DNA from: an uncultured Desulfuromonadales bacterium
Lineage (GTDB): Bacteria > Desulfobacterota > Desulfuromonadia > Geobacterales > Pseudopelobacteraceae
Assembly: GCA_903868145.1 (NCBI GenBank)
Contig: CAIPTY010000037.1
Span: 1 to 56,865, forward strand
DNA length: 56,865 bases
Reading direction: 5' to 3'
Part shown: positions 17,951 to 29,298 of the stretch, piece after piece
Layout of the letters: each line of letters begins with the position of its first letter
Numbering within the stretch: position 1 is the first letter of the stretch
Made by a program: the position numbers and the translations under genes
Notes under the pieces: model-generated
Databases searched by the model: none
Seen by the model: only the letters and a program-made list of their open reading frames with translations
Told to the model about the DNA's origin: nothing

Positions 17951-19717
17951 ATGGTACTGAAAATACGCACCATACCACGAACCCTGATGTTCAGAACTCT
18001 CTGTGCTGCTTTCCTGCTGATCCTGTGGGCATGCCCGGTCACGGTATCTGCCATGGTGGAAGTGGATGTGGCGCCCCCGGTCACTATTGTTGTGGGGGGG
18101 GGTGATCGTGATTATCCCCCCTACGAATTCCTGGACAAGGACGGCAAACTGGCCGGCTATAATGTTGATTTGACCAGGGCTATCGCTGAAGTAATGGGTA
18201 TGCAGGTCGAATTCCGATCCGGCGGCTGGTCCGAGATGCGTAACGCCCTCCAGGGCAGAACCGTGGATGTCCTGCAGGGAATATCCTATTCCGATGACCG
18301 CACCAAGACGCTCTCCTTTTCCCCTCCTCACACAATTATCAACCACTCCATCTTCGCCCGCAAAGAGACGCCCCCGGTCGGTTCGATCGAGGAGTTGCGC
18401 GGCAAGGAGATTGTCGTTTTCCGTGACGGGATCATGCACGACTACCTTACCTCGCTCGGTTTCAGCAAAAATCTGGTAATGACCGATACGCCGGCCGATG
18501 CACTGCGGCTTCTGGCCTCCGGCAAGCACGACTATGCCGTGCTTGCCATGCTGCCCGGTATGTACATCATCCGCGAACATAAGCTTTCCAATCTGGTTGT
18601 CGTCGCCAGAACCATCTCTACCCAGCGCTACTGTTATGCCGTTAAAAAGGGGAATGAAGAGCTGCTGGCACGATTTAACGAGGGGCTGGCCATACTCAAG
18701 AAAACCGGCAAATATCAGGAGATCTACGACCGGTGGCTGGGGGTGCTGGGACCTCCAAAGGTTGCCTGGGAAAAGGTGGTCTGGTACGGGGTCATGGTGT
18801 TGGGGCCCTTGCTTCTTATCCTGGCCGGAACGGTAATCTGGTCGCGAACCCTCCAGAAACGGGTCGCCCAGCGGACCGGGGAACTGGCACTGGAGGTAGT
18901 CGAGCGAAAGCGTGCCCTCGATGAGCTTAAGCTCCATCAGGACAAGCTGATCCAGGCTGACAAGATGGCTTCGCTTGGTATTCTGGTGGCGGGTGTCGCC
19001 CATGAGATCAACAACCCTAATGGCCTGATACTCCTGAACATGCCGATCCTGAGAGAGGTCTATCAGGATGCTGAGGAGGTTCTGGAGACTCGTTACCATG
19101 AGCAGGGAGATTTTACGCTCGGAGGACTCCCCTATTCACGGATGCGAAATGAGGTTCCATGCATGCTGGAGGAGATGCAGGAAGCGGCCAACCGCATCAA
19201 ACGGATTGTGGAGGAGTTGAAGGATTTTGCCCGTCAGGACACCTCGACGACAACTGAACCGGTTGACCTGAACAACGTCGTTAAAGCTGCCATCCGTCTG
19301 GTGGATTCGTCGATCCGCTCCGCCACCAGATACTTTGAAACGTGCTATTCGCCGAGCCTGCCCATGATCCAGGGGAATGCCCAGAGGATCGAACAGGTGG
19401 CGGTGAACCTGATCCTGAATGCCTGCCAGTCGCTGCCGGATAGTGAGCACCGTATCTCCATCACGACCCTGTACGACCAGGAGAAAGACTCCGTTATGCT
19501 TAAGGTTTCAGATGAAGGTATCGGGATCAGCCCGGAAAATATCCCCCATCTGACCGATCCGTTCTTCACTACCAAGCGCGAAACCGGCGGCACCGGTCTT
19601 GGACTTTCGGTATCGGCCTCCATCGTCAAAGAGCATGGTGGTTCGCTGGAATTTGATTCCGAACCCGGCACCGGTACTATCGTGGCACTGACTCTCCCCT
19701 GCTGCAGGAGGACATGA
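17951..19717 (+). CDS. sensor histidine kinase with SBP_bac_3 periplasmic domain
   Basis: A 588-residue membrane kinase. A signal-anchor (about 12-34) is followed by a family-3 solute-binding domain at about 42-268 (RDYPPYEFLDKDGKLAGYNVDLTRAIAE), a transmembrane helix at about 278-298, a coiled coil, then the kinase core. H-box His351 lies in GVAHEINNPN, the N-box is NLILNACQS, G1 is DEGIGI and G2 is GGTGLGLS. It should sense an amino-acid-like or organic-acid ligand in the periplasm. The regulator gene follows 3 bases later. The targeted gene is probably dctA downstream, making it functionally DctB-like with a different sensor. Confidence 0.9.
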   Translation: MVLKIRTIPRTLMFRTLCAAFLLILWACPVTVSAMVEVDVAPPVTIVVGGGDRDYPPYEFLDKDGKLAGYNVDLTRAIAEVMGMQVEFRSGGWSEMRNALQGRTVDVLQGISYSDDRTKTLSFSPPHTIINHSIFARKETPPVGSIEELRGKEIVVFRDGIMHDYLTSLGFSKNLVMTDTPADALRLLASGKHDYAVLAMLPGMYIIREHKLSNLVVVARTISTQRYCYAVKKGNEELLARFNEGLAILKKTGKYQEIYDRWLGVLGPPKVAWEKVVWYGVMVLGPLLLILAGTVIWSRTLQKRVAQRTGELALEVVERKRALDELKLHQDKLIQADKMASLGILVAGVAHEINNPNGLILLNMPILREVYQDAEEVLETRYHEQGDFTLGGLPYSRMRNEVPCMLEEMQEAANRIKRIVEELKDFARQDTSTTTEPVDLNNVVKAAIRLVDSSIRSATRYFETCYSPSLPMIQGNAQRIEQVAVNLILNACQSLPDSEHRISITTLYDQEKDSVMLKVSDEGIGISPENIPHLTDPFFTTKRETGGTGLGLSVSASIVKEHGGSLEFDSEPGTGTIVALTLPCCRRT

Positions 19718-19720
19718 CCC

Positions 19721-21145
19721 GTGAACTCGTCCCTGTATCCTCATTTCGGAGTACTGCTGGTCGATGACGAACCGGCCTGGCTCCGCTCCCTGAGTCTCAC
19801 CCTTGAACGTTCTGCCGGTATAACCAATATCAGCACCTGCCAGGATAGCAGCAAGGTAATGGCGATGCTTGAAGAAAAAGAGACGGGACTGATTCTGCTC
19901 GATCTCAACATGCCGCATCTTGCCGGTGATGAACTGCTCGGTATGATCGCCGAACGGCATCCGGGGATCGCGGTAATCATCATCAGCGGCATGAACCAGA
20001 TCGAGAGCGCGGTAAACTGCATCAAGCTGGGGGCCTTTGACTACTTTGTCAAGACCGTGGAGGAGGATCGCCTCCTCAGCGGCGTACTGCGGGCAATACG
20101 GGTGCTGGAGCTTGAACGGCAGAACCGCGAGATGTCGAGCCGGATGCTCTCGGGAGAGCTGAAGTGCCCGGAGGCATTTTCCGGCATTGTCACCACCGAT
20201 CGCGCCATGCAGGCTATTTTTTCCTATATCGAGGCGGTGGCCACGAGTTCGGAACCGCTGTTGATCATGGGAGAAAGCGGCGTCGGCAAGGAACTGATCG
20301 CGAAGGCTGCCCATACCTTGAGCGGCTGCTGCGGACAACTGGTGGCGGTCAACGTGGCCGGCCTGGACGATGTGGTATTTGCCGACACACTCTTCGGACA
20401 TACACGCGGCGCGTTCACCGGCGCAGATCAGCCACGGCGCGGCATGATCGAAGAGGCAGCGGACGGCACCCTTTTTCTGGATGAGATCGGCGACCTGAGC
20501 ATCCCCTCCCAGGTCAAACTCCTGCGTCTGCTTCAGGAGGGGGAGTATTTCCCTCTGGGCAGTGACCGCCCCAAACGCCTCAAGGCGCGGGTGATCGTGG
20601 CAACCCATCAGGATCTGTCGATCAAGCAGGCCGTCGGCACGTTCCGGCGCGATCTGTACTACCGGCTCTGCACACATCTGGTTCTCATCCCTCCCCTTCG
20701 TGAACGGAAAGCTGACTTGCCGCTGCTGCTGGATCATTTCCTGGAGGAAGCCGCCCGCACCCTGTGCAAGAAGAAGCCGACCCCCCCCCGGGAACTCTCC
20801 CAGCTTCTCGGCACTTATAGCTTCCCCGGCAACATCCGTGAGTTGAAGGCCATGGTGTTCAACGCCGTCAGCGTTCATCGTGACCGGGTCCTCTCAATGG
20901 ATACATTTCTCAAAACGATCGGGCGACCGGAACCGAAGCAGAATCAGGAGATGGCCAAACAGCCCGAGCAGAACCTCTATGCCACACTTGAGCGGCTGCC
21001 GACCTTTGGCGAAGCGGCCGAACTGCTGGTGGAAGAGGCCATGTCCCGGGCCAACGGTAACCAGACCATCGCCGCCCGCCTGTTGGGGATATCGCAACCG
21101 GCACTCAGCAAGCGCCTCAAGCTCCGCGGGATTGTTTCTCTCTGA
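19721..21145 (+). CDS. sigma-54-dependent response regulator (NtrC/DctD type)
   Basis: A 474-residue regulator. The receiver domain (1-125) carries Asp61 as phospho-acceptor (LLDLNMP). The AAA+ domain (about 160-400) has Walker A GESGVGKE, the sigma-54 contact loop GAFTGA and the Walker B region GTLFLDEIGD. A Fis-type helix-turn-helix lies at the C-terminus (ANGNQTIAARLLGISQPALSKRL). The GTG start at 19721 has GGAGG about 9 bases upstream. It is paired with the preceding kinase and stands before a perfect -24/-12 promoter. Confidence 0.95.
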   Translation: MNSSLYPHFGVLLVDDEPAWLRSLSLTLERSAGITNISTCQDSSKVMAMLEEKETGLILLDLNMPHLAGDELLGMIAERHPGIAVIIISGMNQIESAVNCIKLGAFDYFVKTVEEDRLLSGVLRAIRVLELERQNREMSSRMLSGELKCPEAFSGIVTTDRAMQAIFSYIEAVATSSEPLLIMGESGVGKELIAKAAHTLSGCCGQLVAVNVAGLDDVVFADTLFGHTRGAFTGADQPRRGMIEEAADGTLFLDEIGDLSIPSQVKLLRLLQEGEYFPLGSDRPKRLKARVIVATHQDLSIKQAVGTFRRDLYYRLCTHLVLIPPLRERKADLPLLLDHFLEEAARTLCKKKPTPPRELSQLLGTYSFPGNIRELKAMVFNAVSVHRDRVLSMDTFLKTIGRPEPKQNQEMAKQPEQNLYATLERLPTFGEAAELLVEEAMSRANGNQTIAARLLGISQPALSKRLKLRGIVSL

Positions 21146-21378: not shown

Positions 21379-21394
21379 TGGCACCCCTATTGCT
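21379..21394 (+). promoter_or_regulatory. sigma-54 (-24/-12) promoter
   Basis: TGGCAC (21379-21384), five bases, then TTGCT (21390-21394) match the sigma-54 consensus TGGCAC-N5-TTGCW exactly. The DUF551 gene starts 82 bases and dctA 350 bases downstream on the same strand. Confidence 0.9.
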
Positions 21395-23063: not shown

Positions 23064-23105
23064 ATAGCCGCCTTTGCAATCAGGAGTACGGGAATTTCAG
23101 GCGAG

Positions 23106-23134
23106 ACCTCCGGGGTTTTGAAAACCTCGGAGGT
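23106..23134 (+). terminator. hairpin between dctA and the KAS III gene
   Basis: A 14-base stem ACCTCCGGGGTTTT / AAAACCTCGGAGGT with one non-Watson-Crick pair is followed by TTTG. It lies 43 bases after dctA and 41 before the next start and probably separates the two units. Confidence 0.6.
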
Positions 23135-23174
23135 TTGATCGAGTTCGACTTTACCAGAGGAGAATTTAGAATTC

Positions 23175-25112
23175 ATGAAACCATTCAGACTGAACAAACA
23201 CGGTAAACTGGTATTCCCCTGCAGCATCTTCGTCGAGCTCGACTTCTCGATCATCTCCGGTCTCGACCACCTGCAGGCCATTATTCGTCGGGACTTTGAG
23301 GGGAAAGCTCCGACCGGCACCGAAATTGCCAAGCGGGCTGCCGCCGGATCCTATACAACACGCTATGACCTGTTGCGTGACATCGGCCTCAACCTCTTCT
23401 GGGCGAACCGTTTCGCCTTGACCATGTACGACAAGCGACCGACCCGCTGGCGGGACGTCCCGCGAAACCGTGAAGACGTCTTCGTCCCGCTCCTGCAGCC
23501 ATGGACTGACAGCAAGGTAAAGGTTGCCAGCGTTCGCGATGCCTACGGACAACTTAAGGCCAAGTGGAACAAAACCTCAGAGGATCAGCTGTTCGAGATG
23601 CTCTTCGATGTCTTCTCAAACAAACTCTATCGCGCTCAGGAACTCCCCGCGATCAAAGCCACCATTACCGAGGCGCTCGCCGCTCCCGATGCCATGACGA
23701 CCACCCTCGGGAAATTCAATCCCGACTACCGGCAGTACAGCAGCGTTGAAATACTCGACGCATCAGAGAAGCAGCCCGAACTCGAAGCGCTCCGGCGGTG
23801 GGCCATGGTGCTACACAACCAGCACCCCTGGGATCGAAGCCGGGCAAAACTCAAAACCTTCGACGAAATGGAAGATGACGACGTGGTCGTACTGTTCTAT
23901 CCCAAAAATCGGGACGTACTTGACTTCATCAATCACGTAAAAAGCGGAGCCACACCCACATCGCAGTCACCGAAGCCAGACCCTGCCATAGCACCGGTGA
24001 AACCGCTCCTGCCGATCGTGCTCGGCGACGATTATCCGGTCCAGCCGAAGCTCGAAGGCCTGGCGATCCGCAAAGGTGAAGTCATCTGCAGCAACGAAGA
24101 CGTCGTCCGGAACTCTCCACCCTCCTGGTCCCCCATGGGCGCCGATGAAATCACGGAAAAAACCGGAATTGAGCGTCGCCGCTACACGGCGGAGCCATTG
24201 GAGAACATCGCCCTTGAAGCGGCACGGGCAGCAATGAAACACTCAGGCCGAACCCCCGGAGAGATCGGTGCGGTACTCTTCTGTTCCTGCACCTCCAGCA
24301 GGTTGATCCCCTCCACCGCCACCTGGCTCTCGGGACAACTGGGTATCATGCAGACCCACTGCTCCGCCGACATCATCGCCGCCTGCGCCGGCTTCCCCTA
24401 CGGCATGGCCGAAGCGGTCCGCCTGATGCGGGAGGTCGAACGTCCGGTGCTGCTGGTCATGGCCGAAAAGTTCTCGGACAAGATTGGGAACGCGCGTCCA
24501 TCACGGATGATCTTTGGGGACGGCGCCGCTGCCATGGTTATCGCACCGAGTGAGGGAAAACGTGATATTGAAGTGGTTCAGACCTACGCCAGCGGCCCCT
24601 TCAGCCAGGTCAACTCGATCATCTGGCCGAACCATGACTTTGACAACGACATCACCGTCTATGGCCCCGAAGTCAAGTCGCTGGTCAAACGCTACCTCGA
24701 CCAGATGATGGGCGAACTTTCCGAACTGAAGAGTATAAAAGGCGGCAAGGCGCTCATTGACGACATCGACGTAATCGTCCCCCATCAGGCAAACAAGACC
24801 ATGATCATCGACATCGCCGTACCTCAGGGCATAAAGGCCAGTGACATCTATTTCAACATCGCCGAGGTTGGCAATGCATCGGCGGCGAGCAGTCCGATCG
24901 CCATGGCAGATGCCGTGTATGACAAGGCGGTCACCAAACGATCCCTGATCTTTGCTCCGGGCTTCGGTGCCGGTGCTGTCGGTGGGTATGTTGTGATGTG
25001 GCTCGACCCGGCGGTCGTTGCTCCAGAGGTTACAACCAGTCTCACCATGCGCCCTTCTCCAACTACGGCGCACTCGTCAATTGAAGATGTCAAGGAGGCG
25101 TTCGGTGGCTAA
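23175..25112 (+). CDS. fusion of unknown N-terminal domain with KAS III (FabH-like) ketosynthase
   Basis: A 645-residue protein. Residues 1 to about 265 form a domain I do not recognise (YDLLRDIGLNLFWANRFALTMYDKRPTRWRD). A Pro/Ser-rich linker (about 266-290) follows, then a complete beta-ketoacyl-ACP synthase III domain (about 295-615). The catalytic triad is intact: Cys404 in AACAGFPYG, His537 in PHQANK and Asn567 in GNASAASSP. KAS III enzymes condense an acyl-CoA with malonyl-ACP or malonyl-CoA. The downstream carboxylase-like gene overlaps by 8 bases, so both products probably work together: carboxylated acyl-CoA made by one, condensed by the other (inference). FabH itself is about 320 residues, so the N-terminal half is extra. 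Confidence 0.8.
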   Translation: MKPFRLNKHGKLVFPCSIFVELDFSIISGLDHLQAIIRRDFEGKAPTGTEIAKRAAAGSYTTRYDLLRDIGLNLFWANRFALTMYDKRPTRWRDVPRNREDVFVPLLQPWTDSKVKVASVRDAYGQLKAKWNKTSEDQLFEMLFDVFSNKLYRAQELPAIKATITEALAAPDAMTTTLGKFNPDYRQYSSVEILDASEKQPELEALRRWAMVLHNQHPWDRSRAKLKTFDEMEDDDVVVLFYPKNRDVLDFINHVKSGATPTSQSPKPDPAIAPVKPLLPIVLGDDYPVQPKLEGLAIRKGEVICSNEDVVRNSPPSWSPMGADEITEKTGIERRRYTAEPLENIALEAARAAMKHSGRTPGEIGAVLFCSCTSSRLIPSTATWLSGQLGIMQTHCSADIIAACAGFPYGMAEAVRLMREVERPVLLVMAEKFSDKIGNARPSRMIFGDGAAAMVIAPSEGKRDIEVVQTYASGPFSQVNSIIWPNHDFDNDITVYGPEVKSLVKRYLDQMMGELSELKSIKGGKALIDDIDVIVPHQANKTMIIDIAVPQGIKASDIYFNIAEVGNASAASSPIAMADAVYDKAVTKRSLIFAPGFGAGAVGGYVVMWLDPAVVAPEVTTSLTMRPSPTTAHSSIEDVKEAFGG

Positions 25113-28100
25113 ATTATCTTTCAGAAAAACTGACGAGTCGGTGCTTCTGCGCCTGCTGAATCTTCCCGAACTGCTTGCCGACACGACCCTGCTTGACCGG
25201 CTGACCGCAGATGAGGATCATGCCGACATTGCGGTACTCGTCGCTGCAGCCCAAGCCTACTTCTCGGCAGCCGTATTTTCCCGCACGTCGTTCTTTGCAG
25301 CAGCGGGTCGCGGACGTCCCAAATCCACCCACGAGTCACTGGTGACGGTCGATTGCCGTTTACGCGGCGAAAAATACCGTCTGGCGGTGCAACGGATTTC
25401 TCCCGGCAGGTACCGTTTTGAGGTTGAGGGAAAGGTTCTCGCGATCTCAATCGACACCGTGAGCGACTATGAGTCCCGAGTCACGGTCGGAGACCGAAGC
25501 CACCGGGTTGTGTCCGTAACGCAAGGAAAGGATCACCTCGTTGAGGTAGACAACGTCATTCACCGGATCGGTCGGGGGGACGTGGGAATGGTTCGCTCTC
25601 CGTCACCGTCGCTGGTCGTCGCCGTCAAGGTCAAACGGGGCGATCTCGTTGCCAAGGGAGACACGCTGGTCGTGCTTGAGGCGATGAAGATGGAAACCGC
25701 AATCACGGCGCCGTTCAACGGCACCGTTGTCGATGTACTCACCGGTCCGAGCATCCAGGTCGATGCCGGTGCCGGTCTCATCAGACTGGAGGCGCTCAGC
25801 GAGCAGGAAACGGGGGGAGCAACCGGGAAACGCATCGATTTCGCCGCTATCGCCGGTGAACGGGCAATCGCTCCCAACGGGCGCGAACAGTGCCTCGAAC
25901 TTCTCGACGCCATCCGTTGGACCATTCTGGGCTACGATACCCAGAGCGGCGTGGTGCGTGATCTTGCGAAACGACTGCTCGACGCCCATAAAGCAACCGA
26001 TGTACACGACCCCCAGGTTGTCGCCGCCGGTCTTGCAGTGCTTGCGGCGTTCAGCGACGTCTGTTCACTGGCGCGCAACCGCCGGGTCGGCGATTCGGAC
26101 GACGAAGTGACGCATAACCCCCGGGAGTATTTTCACCATTACCTTCGCTCGCTCGATCTCGAAGCAGAGGGGATGCCGGAGTCCTATCGACCCAAGCTCG
26201 AGCGCGCTTTCGCCCATTACGGAGTCGATAGTCTCGAGCCCTCTGTCGCCCTCGAACGCGCCGCGTTCCGGCTCTTCGTCGCCCAGCAGGAGGCAGCACC
26301 GCGCGAACCGCTGCTCGGCGCTGTACTGAGTGGCCTGCGCCTTGATCCCGCACGACTTGATGCTGACGCCGCAAAACGGTTACTGAAGACCCTCGACGAT
26401 TTCGTGATTGCCACCGAGCTGCGCTTTCCCAATCTCGGCAACAAAGCCCGTAGTGTCCGCTACCAGAACTTCGAACAGCCGGGCGTGGAGGCTCGCAAGG
26501 TGGCGGTGCTGAAGGAAATGCGCGGCCACCTTGCCGCACTCCGTTCTGCGGGCGCTTCAGCATCGCACTTCGATGCACTGATCAACTGTCCCGAGGCTCT
26601 GATTGAGCTCCTGGCGGATCCACCGGGATCGGACGGTTCAGGCGGCGATCCGCTGCTCGATGTCATGTTCCGGCGCTTCTATCGTGTAAAGACCCTGCAC
26701 GACGTACAGGAAATCGAGGGAGGACTTCGCTCCGCCGGCTATAACACCGACGGAGAGCGCCGATACGTTGTTGCTGCTATCACAAACCAGGCTCAGGCCG
26801 CTGAAACACTGAGAACAGCACTGGCCCACGGTCGGACGGTATCGGGCAGTGCCCCCCTTTCGATCGATCTTTACACCCGCTGGGACGGTTCTATTTCAGC
26901 GGGCGATGTCGAAACCTGGGCTCACGGCATCGTCGCCATCGCCGCTGCGCCGGAGAATATTCGCCGGATAACCTTCTCGGGTGCCGCCCCCGACGGTAAC
27001 GTGTTTCACCACACCTATCGGCTCTCTGACGGGACATTCACGGAGGATCTGATTATCCGTCATTGCCACCCGATGATCGCTGCCAGATTAAAATATTACC
27101 GGTTCAGGAACTTTACGTCTGAACGTCTCGATTCACCAAATGGCATCTACTCCTACAAGGTAATCGGTGTCAATAACCCTCGCGACGTGCGCCTGATGGC
27201 CGTGGCCGAGGTTCGTGATCTGACGCCGAGCCACGACGAATCGGGGAGGATTTCCGGCTTACCCACGACTGAACGGCTTATTGCCGCCTGCGCCAATGCC
27301 ATTCGCACCGCACAGGCGGAGCACGACCCGCGCCGCCAGCTTATGATGAACCGGATCGTGCTCTATGCCTGGCCAACCTTCGATCTTCCGCTCGAAGTGA
27401 TGAATATGGTAGCCAGACGGCTTGCGGCGCTCACCTCCAACCTCGGACTGGAGGGGGTCGAAGTCATCTGCTCGCCGACCGCCAACAGCGAAACAGGGGA
27501 TGCCATTTTACGCTTCGGGTTCGACTCGGGCGACCATACAACCTTCGAAATTACAGATGCCACCGACGAACCCATCCCTGTGCTTGATCGCTACCGCCAG
27601 AACGTCATCATGTCGCAGCAGCGGGGATCAATCTACCCCTATGAACTGATCGACCGCCTTATCAGAGGCGGCGGTTCATTCATTGAATATGCCGTGACCC
27701 CGGATGGTTCCTTTGAACCTGTCGACCGGCCAAAAGGCAACAACGACAACGGCTTTGTGGGCGGCATCCTGACAACGCCATCCGAACGCTACCCGGAAGG
27801 GATCTCACGGGTGGTGCTGCTCGGGGATCCGACAAAAGAGCTGGCCTCGCTCGCAGAGCCGGAGTGCCGCATGGTCATTGGTGCCCTCGCCCTGGCGAAA
27901 CAACGCTCCACTTCTCTCGAATGGTACGCAGTGTCGGCTGGTGCCCGGATCTCCATGACCAGCGGCACCGAAAACATGGACTGGATTTCGATCGTGCTGC
28001 GACGACTGATCGAGTTTACCCAGGGTGGGGGCGAAATAAACATCGTCATCACCGGCATTACCGTCGGCGGACAGCCGTACTGGAACGCCGAAGCCACCAT

Positions 28101-29298
28101 GCTCATGCATACCAAGGGCATTCTGGTCATGACCCCCGACGGCACCATGGTGCTCACCGGAAAACAATCGCTCGACTTCTCGGGGGGCGTTTCAGCGGAA
28201 GATAACTTCGGGCTCGGCGGCTACGACCGCATCATGGGGCCAAACGGCCAGGCGCAGTACTGGGCGCCCGATCTCGAAGCTGCCTGCGAAATCATGCGGC
28301 AGCACAACGAACATGCGTATCGGGCGCCGGGTGAACGTTTTCCGCGACGTGCGAAAACCTCTGACGATCCGGAACGTGACGTCAGATCGGCACGGCATGA
28401 CGGACCCGAGTTCGAAACGGTCGGCGAGGTATTTGCCGAAGCCACCAACCCCGGCCGGAAGAAGCCGTTTGACATCCGTTCCATTATGCGTGCTGTTGCC
28501 GATCAGGATCTTAAACCGATGGAACGGTGGGCCGACATGCGTGATGCCGACACCGGTGTGGTCTTCGAGGCCAATCTTGGGGGGTATCCGGTTATGATGC
28601 TCGGCATCGCCTCGCGGGCAATTCCCCGCAAAGGGCTGCTCCCGGCGGACGGCCCCGATGTCTGGACATCGGGCACACTCTTCCCCATGTCGTCGAAAAA
28701 GCTGGCGCGTGCCATCAATAGTGCCAGCGGTAGTCGCCCCCTGGTCGTCCTGGCCAATCTGTCAGGCTTTGACGGTTCACCCGAATCTCTGATCAGATGC
28801 CAGCTTGAGTATGGCGCCGAGATCGGCCGGGCCGTGACCAACTTCGACGGCCCGATCGTGTTCTGCGTTGTGTCGCGCTATCACGGCGGCGCGTTCGTCG
28901 TATTCTCGAAGGTCCTCAACGACAACATGGAGGCTTTAGCCGTAGAAGGCACCTTCGCCTCGGTGCTCGGAGGGGCACCGGCCGCAGCCGTTGTCTTCAC
29001 CCGGGAGGTTGATCAACGCACCGACGCCGATGAGCGCATTGTCAATCTTCGCACTCGCATCAGTGCAACGACGGGATCGGAACGGGTTGCTCTTCAGGCC
29101 GAACTTGCCGAACTGCGGCCAGTAGTTCGCGCCGAGAAGCTGGGGCAGAAAGCGATCGAATACGATGCGGTTCACACCATCCAGCGTGCCCGCGAAATGG
29201 GCTCGGTGGACGCCATCATCCCGGCACAACGCCTACGCCCTGAGCTTATCGCCGCTCTCGAACGGGGCATGGCACGAACCCTTGCTGCAGCGAGCTGA
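25105..29298 (+). CDS. eukaryotic-ACC-like biotinyl/carboxyltransferase protein lacking biotin carboxylase
   Basis: A 1397-residue protein started at GTG 25105, with AAGGAGG 6 bases before it. Residues about 85-155 look like the BT beta-barrel (YRLAVQRISPGRYRFEVEG). A biotinyl domain follows with Lys195 in EAMKMET. The long middle (about 250-850) resembles the central region of eukaryotic-type acetyl-CoA carboxylase. A carboxyltransferase domain fills about 880 to the end (GARISMTSGTENMDW, GGQPYWNAEATML, CVVSRYHGGAFVVFSK). No ATP-grasp biotin carboxylase is present, so that subunit must come from elsewhere. It probably carboxylates acetyl-CoA or another acyl-CoA for the ketosynthase encoded just upstream. 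Confidence 0.8.
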   Translation: MAKLSFRKTDESVLLRLLNLPELLADTTLLDRLTADEDHADIAVLVAAAQAYFSAAVFSRTSFFAAAGRGRPKSTHESLVTVDCRLRGEKYRLAVQRISPGRYRFEVEGKVLAISIDTVSDYESRVTVGDRSHRVVSVTQGKDHLVEVDNVIHRIGRGDVGMVRSPSPSLVVAVKVKRGDLVAKGDTLVVLEAMKMETAITAPFNGTVVDVLTGPSIQVDAGAGLIRLEALSEQETGGATGKRIDFAAIAGERAIAPNGREQCLELLDAIRWTILGYDTQSGVVRDLAKRLLDAHKATDVHDPQVVAAGLAVLAAFSDVCSLARNRRVGDSDDEVTHNPREYFHHYLRSLDLEAEGMPESYRPKLERAFAHYGVDSLEPSVALERAAFRLFVAQQEAAPREPLLGAVLSGLRLDPARLDADAAKRLLKTLDDFVIATELRFPNLGNKARSVRYQNFEQPGVEARKVAVLKEMRGHLAALRSAGASASHFDALINCPEALIELLADPPGSDGSGGDPLLDVMFRRFYRVKTLHDVQEIEGGLRSAGYNTDGERRYVVAAITNQAQAAETLRTALAHGRTVSGSAPLSIDLYTRWDGSISAGDVETWAHGIVAIAAAPENIRRITFSGAAPDGNVFHHTYRLSDGTFTEDLIIRHCHPMIAARLKYYRFRNFTSERLDSPNGIYSYKVIGVNNPRDVRLMAVAEVRDLTPSHDESGRISGLPTTERLIAACANAIRTAQAEHDPRRQLMMNRIVLYAWPTFDLPLEVMNMVARRLAALTSNLGLEGVEVICSPTANSETGDAILRFGFDSGDHTTFEITDATDEPIPVLDRYRQNVIMSQQRGSIYPYELIDRLIRGGGSFIEYAVTPDGSFEPVDRPKGNNDNGFVGGILTTPSERYPEGISRVVLLGDPTKELASLAEPECRMVIGALALAKQRSTSLEWYAVSAGARISMTSGTENMDWISIVLRRLIEFTQGGGEINIVITGITVGGQPYWNAEATMLMHTKGILVMTPDGTMVLTGKQSLDFSGGVSAEDNFGLGGYDRIMGPNGQAQYWAPDLEAACEIMRQHNEHAYRAPGERFPRRAKTSDDPERDVRSARHDGPEFETVGEVFAEATNPGRKKPFDIRSIMRAVADQDLKPMERWADMRDADTGVVFEANLGGYPVMMLGIASRAIPRKGLLPADGPDVWTSGTLFPMSSKKLARAINSASGSRPLVVLANLSGFDGSPESLIRCQLEYGAEIGRAVTNFDGPIVFCVVSRYHGGAFVVFSKVLNDNMEALAVEGTFASVLGGAPAAAVVFTREVDQRTDADERIVNLRTRISATTGSERVALQAELAELRPVVRAEKLGQKAIEYDAVHTIQRAREMGSVDAIIPAQRLRPELIAALERGMARTLAAAS

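Follow-up and report, generated by a model that had tools for sequence, protein, structure and literature searches.

A biotin carboxylase-less multidomain carboxylase and its ketosynthase partner in Desulfuromonadota: a possible malonyl-CoA route to polyhydroxyalkanoate

Introduction

How might a biotin-dependent carboxylase work without a biotin carboxylase (BC) domain of its own, and what might it make for a ketosynthase encoded directly beside it? These questions are raised by two overlapping forward-strand genes on contig CAIPTY010000037.1 of an uncultured Desulfuromonadales bacterium (GCA_903868145.1); the whole stretch analysed, 56,865 nucleotides, is called the window here. Gene 1 (23175–25112 in the open reading frame (ORF) listing) encodes a 645-residue ketosynthase fusion, and gene 2 (25105–29298) a 1397-residue multidomain carboxylase. 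The pair had been described in an earlier reading of the DNA letters (the original prediction), and both ORFs and their 8-base overlap were confirmed. We propose, at odds barely better than even (a probability of about 0.52), that the pair combines a short-chain acyl-CoA carboxylase, which would have lost its BC and would be served by AccC in trans, with a dedicated ketosynthase, the two together supplying 3-ketoacyl-CoA for polyhydroxyalkanoate (PHA).

Actinobacteria are already known to have eukaryotic-type multidomain acetyl-CoA carboxylase (ACC) that includes a BC. SACE_4237 of Saccharopolyspora erythraea, described as the first bacterial multidomain ACC, carboxylates acetyl-CoA and propionyl-CoA and has orthologues in Pseudonocardiaceae (PMC6491548). 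The ACC central domain had earlier been called unique to eukaryotic ACCs (PMC4833862). Literature searches outside subscription papers and preprints returned no ketosynthase of the present kind, no BC-less ACC of this type and no natural malonyl-CoA route to PHA.

Results

The longest ORF of gene 2 comprises 1426 residues from a TTG at 25018. The GTG at 25105, which gives the 1397-residue protein, lies 6 bases downstream of AAGGAGG and overlaps the ketosynthase stop codon. In the four other BC-less homologues an ATG occupies the identical 8-base overlap, with AAGGAGG, or a variant, upstream. An internal BC, which the original prediction had named as evidence against itself, was not found: the Pfam search detected no BC or ATP-grasp domain in the protein, and Biotin_lipoyl, ACC_central and Carboxyl_trans all scored above their cut-offs.

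The forward-strand domains follow one another as the original prediction had described. A BT-like (BC–CT interaction) domain (25198–25557) was recognized by ACCA_BT below its cut-off (E 8e-4) and aligns at the same place to yeast and human ACC. It is followed by the biotinyl domain (25579–25791; Biotin_lipoyl E 4.6e-14), whose biotin lysine within EAMKM (codon 25687–25689; K195, or K224 in the 1426-residue numbering) is conserved in all nine rows covering it. Part of the ACC-specific central region (26953–27417) matches positions 498–651 of the ACC_central profile PF08326, with 35.2 bits against a cut-off of 23.2. The carboxyltransferase (CT) domain (27658–29295; Carboxyl_trans E 3.5e-26) is the only CT domain that Pfam finds in the protein. 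From BT onward, the best solved relatives, region by region, are yeast and other eukaryotic ACCs; the 1.3S transcarboxylase subunit is among the matches of the biotinyl domain. The window carboxylase thus shares the order BT, biotinyl, central and CT with yeast ACC1 and SACE_4237, the latter compared by description and not by alignment. It differs from both in lacking BC, so that the five-domain chain of the eukaryotic-type and actinobacterial enzymes is incomplete, in standing beside a ketosynthase and in belonging to Desulfuromonadota. The original prediction had considered such an order, minus its first domain, unusual in bacteria; the order holds and has fused homologues, but its rarity is tempered by the known actinobacterial multidomain ACCs.

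These fused homologues came from a scan of named genomes with the N-terminal domain of the ketosynthase, which yielded 24 loci in three phyla. A carboxylase of 1835–1890 residues adjoins the ketosynthase in Pseudonocardia (L072, L073 and L075; L077 was dropped because its ORF layout is the same as that of L075) and in one Geodermatophilaceae genome (L083). The L072 and L083 proteins, the two scanned with Pfam, contain BC, biotinyl, central and CT domains; those of L073 and L075 match a BC by BLAST. The window carboxylase is 47–48% identical to the four, with 64–71% identity in CT, 52–56% in the biotinyl domain and 32–37% in the BT and central regions. Its start falls within the final helix of the BC domain of these proteins, and the remnant of this helix, TDESVLLRLLNLPEL (25129–25197, forward strand), is 57% identical over 23 columns to TNKAFLLDLLQRPEL and similar segments of the fused homologues.

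The gene is under purifying selection, and its architecture is not a product of chance. For the whole carboxylase, dN/dS is 0.083 against G223 and 0.139 against G241; the corresponding values for CT are 0.040 and 0.064, and BT gives 0.087 against G223, with synonymous sites saturated against G241. The window protein is most likely a functioning, shortened multidomain ACC. Because the protein still carries the last-helix remnant and is under purifying selection, loss of BC from a eukaryotic-type (actinobacterial) multidomain ACC appears to be the likeliest history; the argument that the fused form came first is the BC-tail remnant.

Gene 1 supplies the condensing partner. Its KAS III domain (24048–25004, forward strand) aligns to FabH chains, and ACP_syn_III and ACP_syn_III_C both score above cut-off, confined to the C-terminal half of the protein. 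The original prediction of a complete KAS III was borne out: Cys404 (24384–24386), His537 (24783–24785) and Asn567 (24873–24875) lie in FabH motifs and are invariant in all 22 aligned homologues. FabH enzymes are the best solved relatives (closest chain 2ebd_A, E 9.7e-44). The window protein differs from them in its fused extra domain and in scoring below the cut-offs of the NCBIfam FabH-type profiles (best 164.5 against 249). As judged from its motifs, the intact triad marks it as a ketosynthase of the decarboxylating-condensation type.

The ketosynthase ends in a tail, SSIEDVKEAFGG plus stop (25035–25112, forward strand), whose DNA holds the Shine-Dalgarno sequence of the next gene (AAGGAGG, 25092–25098). 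Similar tails occur in Desulfuromonadota and in most actinobacterial ketosynthases, and are absent from five Rokubacteria proteins. A role of the tail in docking the carboxylase is unsupported: it is also present in ketosynthases without an adjoining carboxylase (L115, L124, L126 and L127, and less clearly L129), and its double use as a Shine-Dalgarno site in the BC-less loci weighs against a docking motif. The tailless Rokubacteria fusions (L079, L080, L081, L082 and L084) had no carboxylase or PHA gene that we could find nearby, and in L080 and L082 an amidohydrolase gene lies 3' of the ketosynthase. Among plasmid records, 282 match the ketosynthase, none across more than 80% of the query, and the 15 matches listed all fall within residues 253–640, mostly in KAS III.

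How widely is the pair found? Among the 244 genomes of the class sample, the carboxylase search matched 16, of which 11 gave short biotinyl-region matches alone and five have a real homologue: the window genome (G000), G223, G241, G163 and G231, from four families. All five are fragmented draft assemblies of at least 103 contigs each. The ketosynthase N-terminal domain occurs in 11 genomes at 13 loci, counting two contig pieces of G178 as one and leaving out L064, which ends within the ketosynthase. A carboxylase gene adjoins every one of the 13. Five loci carry the BC-less form (window, G223a, G241, G163 and G231), and all five BC-less genes abut the ketosynthase. The other eight (contig C71 of the window genome, G042, G178, G208, G238, G181, G215 and G223b) carry a carboxylase of a different order, CTalpha-CTbeta-BC-BCCP, ending in a biotin carboxyl carrier protein (BCCP). 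This enzyme has 1523–1552 residues where complete and is split into two ORFs in G208 and G223b; in G215 the contig end truncates it, and a short-chain dehydrogenase/reductase (SDR) gene lies between it and the ketosynthase. Its CTalpha and BC parts are Pfam matches, the CTbeta part is a below-cut-off AccD match, and the BCCP part was recognized from a 27% match to an AccB-like ORF and an LEAMK motif. On C71 (L009, 7981–12639) it is a single chain of 1552 residues inside a PHA gene cluster. The same type of carboxylase also stands in PHA clusters without the ketosynthase, beside a thiolase and an SDR in G092 and beside an SDR in G184.

No BLASTP alignment was obtained between this carboxylase and that of the window; its BC is 42% identical to the BC of the fused ACC. 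Since the two types cannot be aligned, the common factor of the pairings would be a carboxylated acyl-CoA. In the ketosynthase tree the BC-less-linked copies do not group together (3 changes), and the window copy falls among those adjoining the other carboxylase type (support 94/98). The tree thus gives no support for a single origin of the BC-less pairing, though there may have been one; partners appear to have been exchanged or lost.

In Pseudonocardia's order the ketosynthase was found in 18 of 200 genomes. At the 16 loci examined, which do not include G349 (a 3.5 kb contig) and G244, a fused ACC adjoins it in 11, an SDR in 13 and PhaC in seven, and five loci combine SDR, ACC, ketosynthase and PhaC. 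When ten ketosynthase genomes from the named-genome scan were searched for the multidomain ACC, it was found in five (three Pseudonocardia, one Geodermatophilaceae and the Intrasporangium genome). At an Acidimicrobiales locus, PhaC is accompanied by an SDR and a PHB-depolymerase-like gene, and no carboxylase was found.

The coupling that the original prediction had seen thus stands for the carboxylase, whose BC-less genes always abut a ketosynthase, and is looser for the ketosynthase, which has no carboxylase at any of the five Rokubacteria loci and also pairs with the unalignable BC-containing enzyme, even next to a closely similar copy in the same genome.

That same-genome copy, 86% identical to the window ketosynthase, brings PHA into the argument. 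Its locus on C71 runs in the order two phasin-like genes, PhaE, PhaC, a FabG/PhaB-like reductase, the BC-containing carboxylase, the ketosynthase and a thiolase. In G241 the order is PhaE-PhaC-ketosynthase-carboxylase-SDR, and the BC-less locus of G223 holds the SDR, a PhaA-like thiolase and a phasin-like gene. The same SDR follows three of the four other BC-less pairs (G241, G163 and G223); the contig of G231 breaks off within the carboxylase, and no PHA gene is present on the short G163 contigs. In G241 this SDR scores 270 bits with the acetoacetyl-CoA reductase profile, below its cut-off of 302, and above cut-off with a FabG subfamily. A linked PHA synthase is thus present at the same-genome paralogue and in G241, and absent from the window locus. 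Across the class sample PhaE exceeds its curated cut-off in 12 genomes and the ketosynthase is found in 11, with both in ten (Fisher p 4e-15, related genomes being counted as independent). Weaker PhaE matches in G188, G029 and G189 were left out of this count; at E 1e-3 the total is 15 of 244. The ketosynthase without PhaE is that of G215, a genome 70% complete. Relatives of the pair beside PHA genes in two phyla suggest a malonyl-CoA route to PHA.

The N-terminal domain of gene 1 (approximately residues 1–291; 23175–24047, forward strand) is conserved across 24 aligned sequences from three phyla. The original prediction gave it about 265 residues; a length nearer 290 fits better. Its status as an unknown domain was upheld, as residues 1–302 matched no Pfam family up to E 10, either in the window protein or in two homologues. 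Five models of the domain reached mean pLDDT values of 79.1, 76.3, 57.3, 43.6 and 40.9, and the model of the full fusion is weak (pLDDT 73.4, pTM 0.55). Fold searches with a medium-confidence model gave no confident match (Foldseek best E 1.4; VIA best Z 2.1, in one row; viral library best E 1.6), which is no proof of a new fold. A cryptic BC in this domain was considered and rejected, because the same domain also accompanies carboxylases that have a BC of their own. In two genomes a small ORF lies directly upstream of the ketosynthase (L057, 10065–10628, reverse strand; L064, 1850–2605). It carries VGF[AG]GI near its start and has no Pfam or NCBIfam match at E 0.001; by eye, we take it to resemble the N-terminus of FabY-type ketosynthases.

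Upstream of the pair in the window lie dctA and a two-component system. A strong forward-strand hairpin between dctA and gene 1 (23104–23136) is likely the dctA terminator; the segment 23095–23145 folds at −24.3 kcal/mol (z −4.0, with none of 200 shuffles as stable) and was unlisted by the consensus scan. The two-component system (17951–21145) lies ahead of dctA and the pair and includes a response regulator of the sigma-54 type; a relative of that regulator (53%; L054, 1–3972) comes before the other carboxylase and its ketosynthase in G208. A −24/−12-like site with one mismatch lies at 21379–21393, approximately 330–350 bases upstream of dctA; across the window the sigma-54 pattern shows no enrichment, with 16 matches where 21.5 would be expected.

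Discussion

If the carboxylase is active, its BC must come from elsewhere, most likely from the housekeeping AccC acting in trans. AccC-sized BC frames (398–459 residues) are present in all five genomes with the BC-less enzyme, adjoining an AccB-like ORF in the window genome; the remaining BC matches of G163 and G231 fall in frames of 1154 and 875 residues. AccD also exceeds its cut-off in all five, and the BC-less carboxylase is therefore an extra ACC beside the ordinary one. Supply in trans is supported by the BC-tail remnant and by the constraint on the BT domain.

We propose the following sequence of events. Housekeeping AccC would charge the biotin of the BC-less carboxylase, and the CT domain would then make malonyl-CoA or a short homologue, possibly also methylmalonyl-CoA. 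The KAS III fusion would condense an acyl-CoA, most simply acetyl-CoA, with malonyl-CoA, releasing CO2 and giving a 3-ketoacyl-CoA, in the simplest case acetoacetyl-CoA. A FabG/PhaB-type reductase (the SDR) would reduce this product, and PHA synthase would polymerize it; the window copy may feed PHA genes located elsewhere in its genome. The scheme draws on convergence, in that a single ketosynthase family occurs, in two phyla, with differing carboxylases, with reductases of one kind and with PHA synthases. NphT7 is a KAS III that uses acetyl-CoA and malonyl-CoA, and several engineering studies use it. The window ketosynthase shares its triad and, as we propose from genomic context, its CoA-thioester route to acetoacetyl-CoA. 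It differs in the N-terminal domain of about 290 residues, in having its own adjoining carboxylase and in being associated with PHA genes instead of mevalonate genes. The usual PhaA-PhaB-PhaC route needs neither carboxylase nor ketosynthase. Compared with class III and class I PHA clusters, the homologous loci share PhaE, PhaC, phasin-like genes and a reductase, and add the carboxylase and the ketosynthase. Thiolase formation of acetoacetyl-CoA is described as thermodynamically constrained (PMC5432608).

Several observations weigh against this reading, and adjacency is not function. At the window locus no PHA gene or reductase adjoins the pair, and neither occurs in the 7.4 kb that precede the pair in G231. 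The genes called phasin-like were named by eye and lack a Pfam match. The reductases adjoining the pair exceed FabG-family cut-offs and not that of PhaB. PhaA-like thiolase genes lie near PHA genes in the window genome and others, so a thiolase is available. G092 and G184 combine PhaE with the other carboxylase in a PHA cluster that lacks the ketosynthase. Five of the 16 loci in Pseudonocardia's order have no adjoining carboxylase, three of them with approximately 9 kb on both sides, and no carboxylase, PhaB or PhaC match was found at the five Rokubacteria loci, on contigs of 7–21 kb. In half of the ten ketosynthase genomes searched, no homologue of the multidomain ACC was found at E 1e-20. 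The presence of AccC carries little weight as proof, given how widespread this protein is. Finally, where the yeast CT motif NWRGFSGG has an arginine, the window protein and its fused homologues have a serine (NLSGFDGS), and the substrate may therefore not be acetyl-CoA.

Could the pair instead provide the starter unit for an unusual lipid, hydrocarbon or polyketide, with the PHA neighbourhood incidental? KAS III enzymes initiate fatty acid and polyketide synthesis, the window and Rokubacteria copies lie away from PHA genes, and the FabG-like scores of the reductases agree with such a role. The co-occurrence with PhaE in ten of 11 genomes and the PHA or SDR linkage in two phyla argue against it, and no acyl carrier protein or polyketide synthase gene was noticed among the scanned neighbours, in which no search was aimed at them. 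We regard this alternative as unlikely. Among the products that the original prediction had suggested, acetoacetyl-CoA is the best fit, given the PHA genes at homologous loci; the lipid or polyketide starter is not indicated by the neighbourhoods.

Another explanation is that the BC-less protein is a transcarboxylase, needing neither BC nor ATP, whose one CT site moves a carboxyl group from one acyl-CoA to another, such as from methylmalonyl-CoA to acetyl-CoA. BCCP plus CT without BC is the composition of known transcarboxylases and decarboxylases, and the match of the biotinyl domain to the 1.3S subunit points the same way. Biotin-dependent transcarboxylases have two CT types and use an acyl-CoA donor; one CT domain was found in the window protein. 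However, the protein shares its ancestry with BC-containing ACC, its BC-facing BT domain is still constrained, and both half-reactions would fall to one CT site; this makes a transcarboxylase rather improbable in our estimate.

It is also conceivable that BC comes not from AccC but from the CTalpha-CTbeta-BC-BCCP carboxylase elsewhere in the genome, so that two enzymes cooperate. Both are present in G000, G223 and G241 (as contig fragments in G241), and the window ketosynthase closely resembles the copy beside that carboxylase. Against this, the BC-less protein occurs in G163 and G231, each 86% complete, where a carboxylase of that kind gave no match, and we give this cooperation a slightly smaller chance still. 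That BC is missing merely through gene decay or assembly error is highly improbable: the genomes are drafts of many contigs and some homologues of the other carboxylase are split into two ORFs, but the identical start and overlap recur in five of five genomes from four families, with dN/dS near 0.1.

Conclusions

We favor, then, a short-chain acyl-CoA carboxylase that borrows AccC and feeds a dedicated ketosynthase. A wider proposal, which we advance tentatively and at somewhat less than even odds, is a natural, ATP-driven malonyl-CoA route to PHA in at least two phyla, in which a dedicated carboxylase and a KAS III with a new N-terminal domain, acting as a unit, bypass the unfavorable thiolase step and the shortened Desulfuromonadota form takes its BC from the fatty acid ACC. 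The N-terminal domain, present in three phyla without a Pfam family or a confident fold match, poses a well-defined problem. The BC-less ACC and its fused homologues, at 47–48% identity, constitute a natural experiment on the BC of a multidomain ACC working in trans. If the proposal is correct, PHA storage in these bacteria would be tied to the central ACC through a borrowed BC, and the malonyl-CoA solution would have a natural counterpart in bacterial PHA synthesis, served by a ketosynthase that evolved for it.

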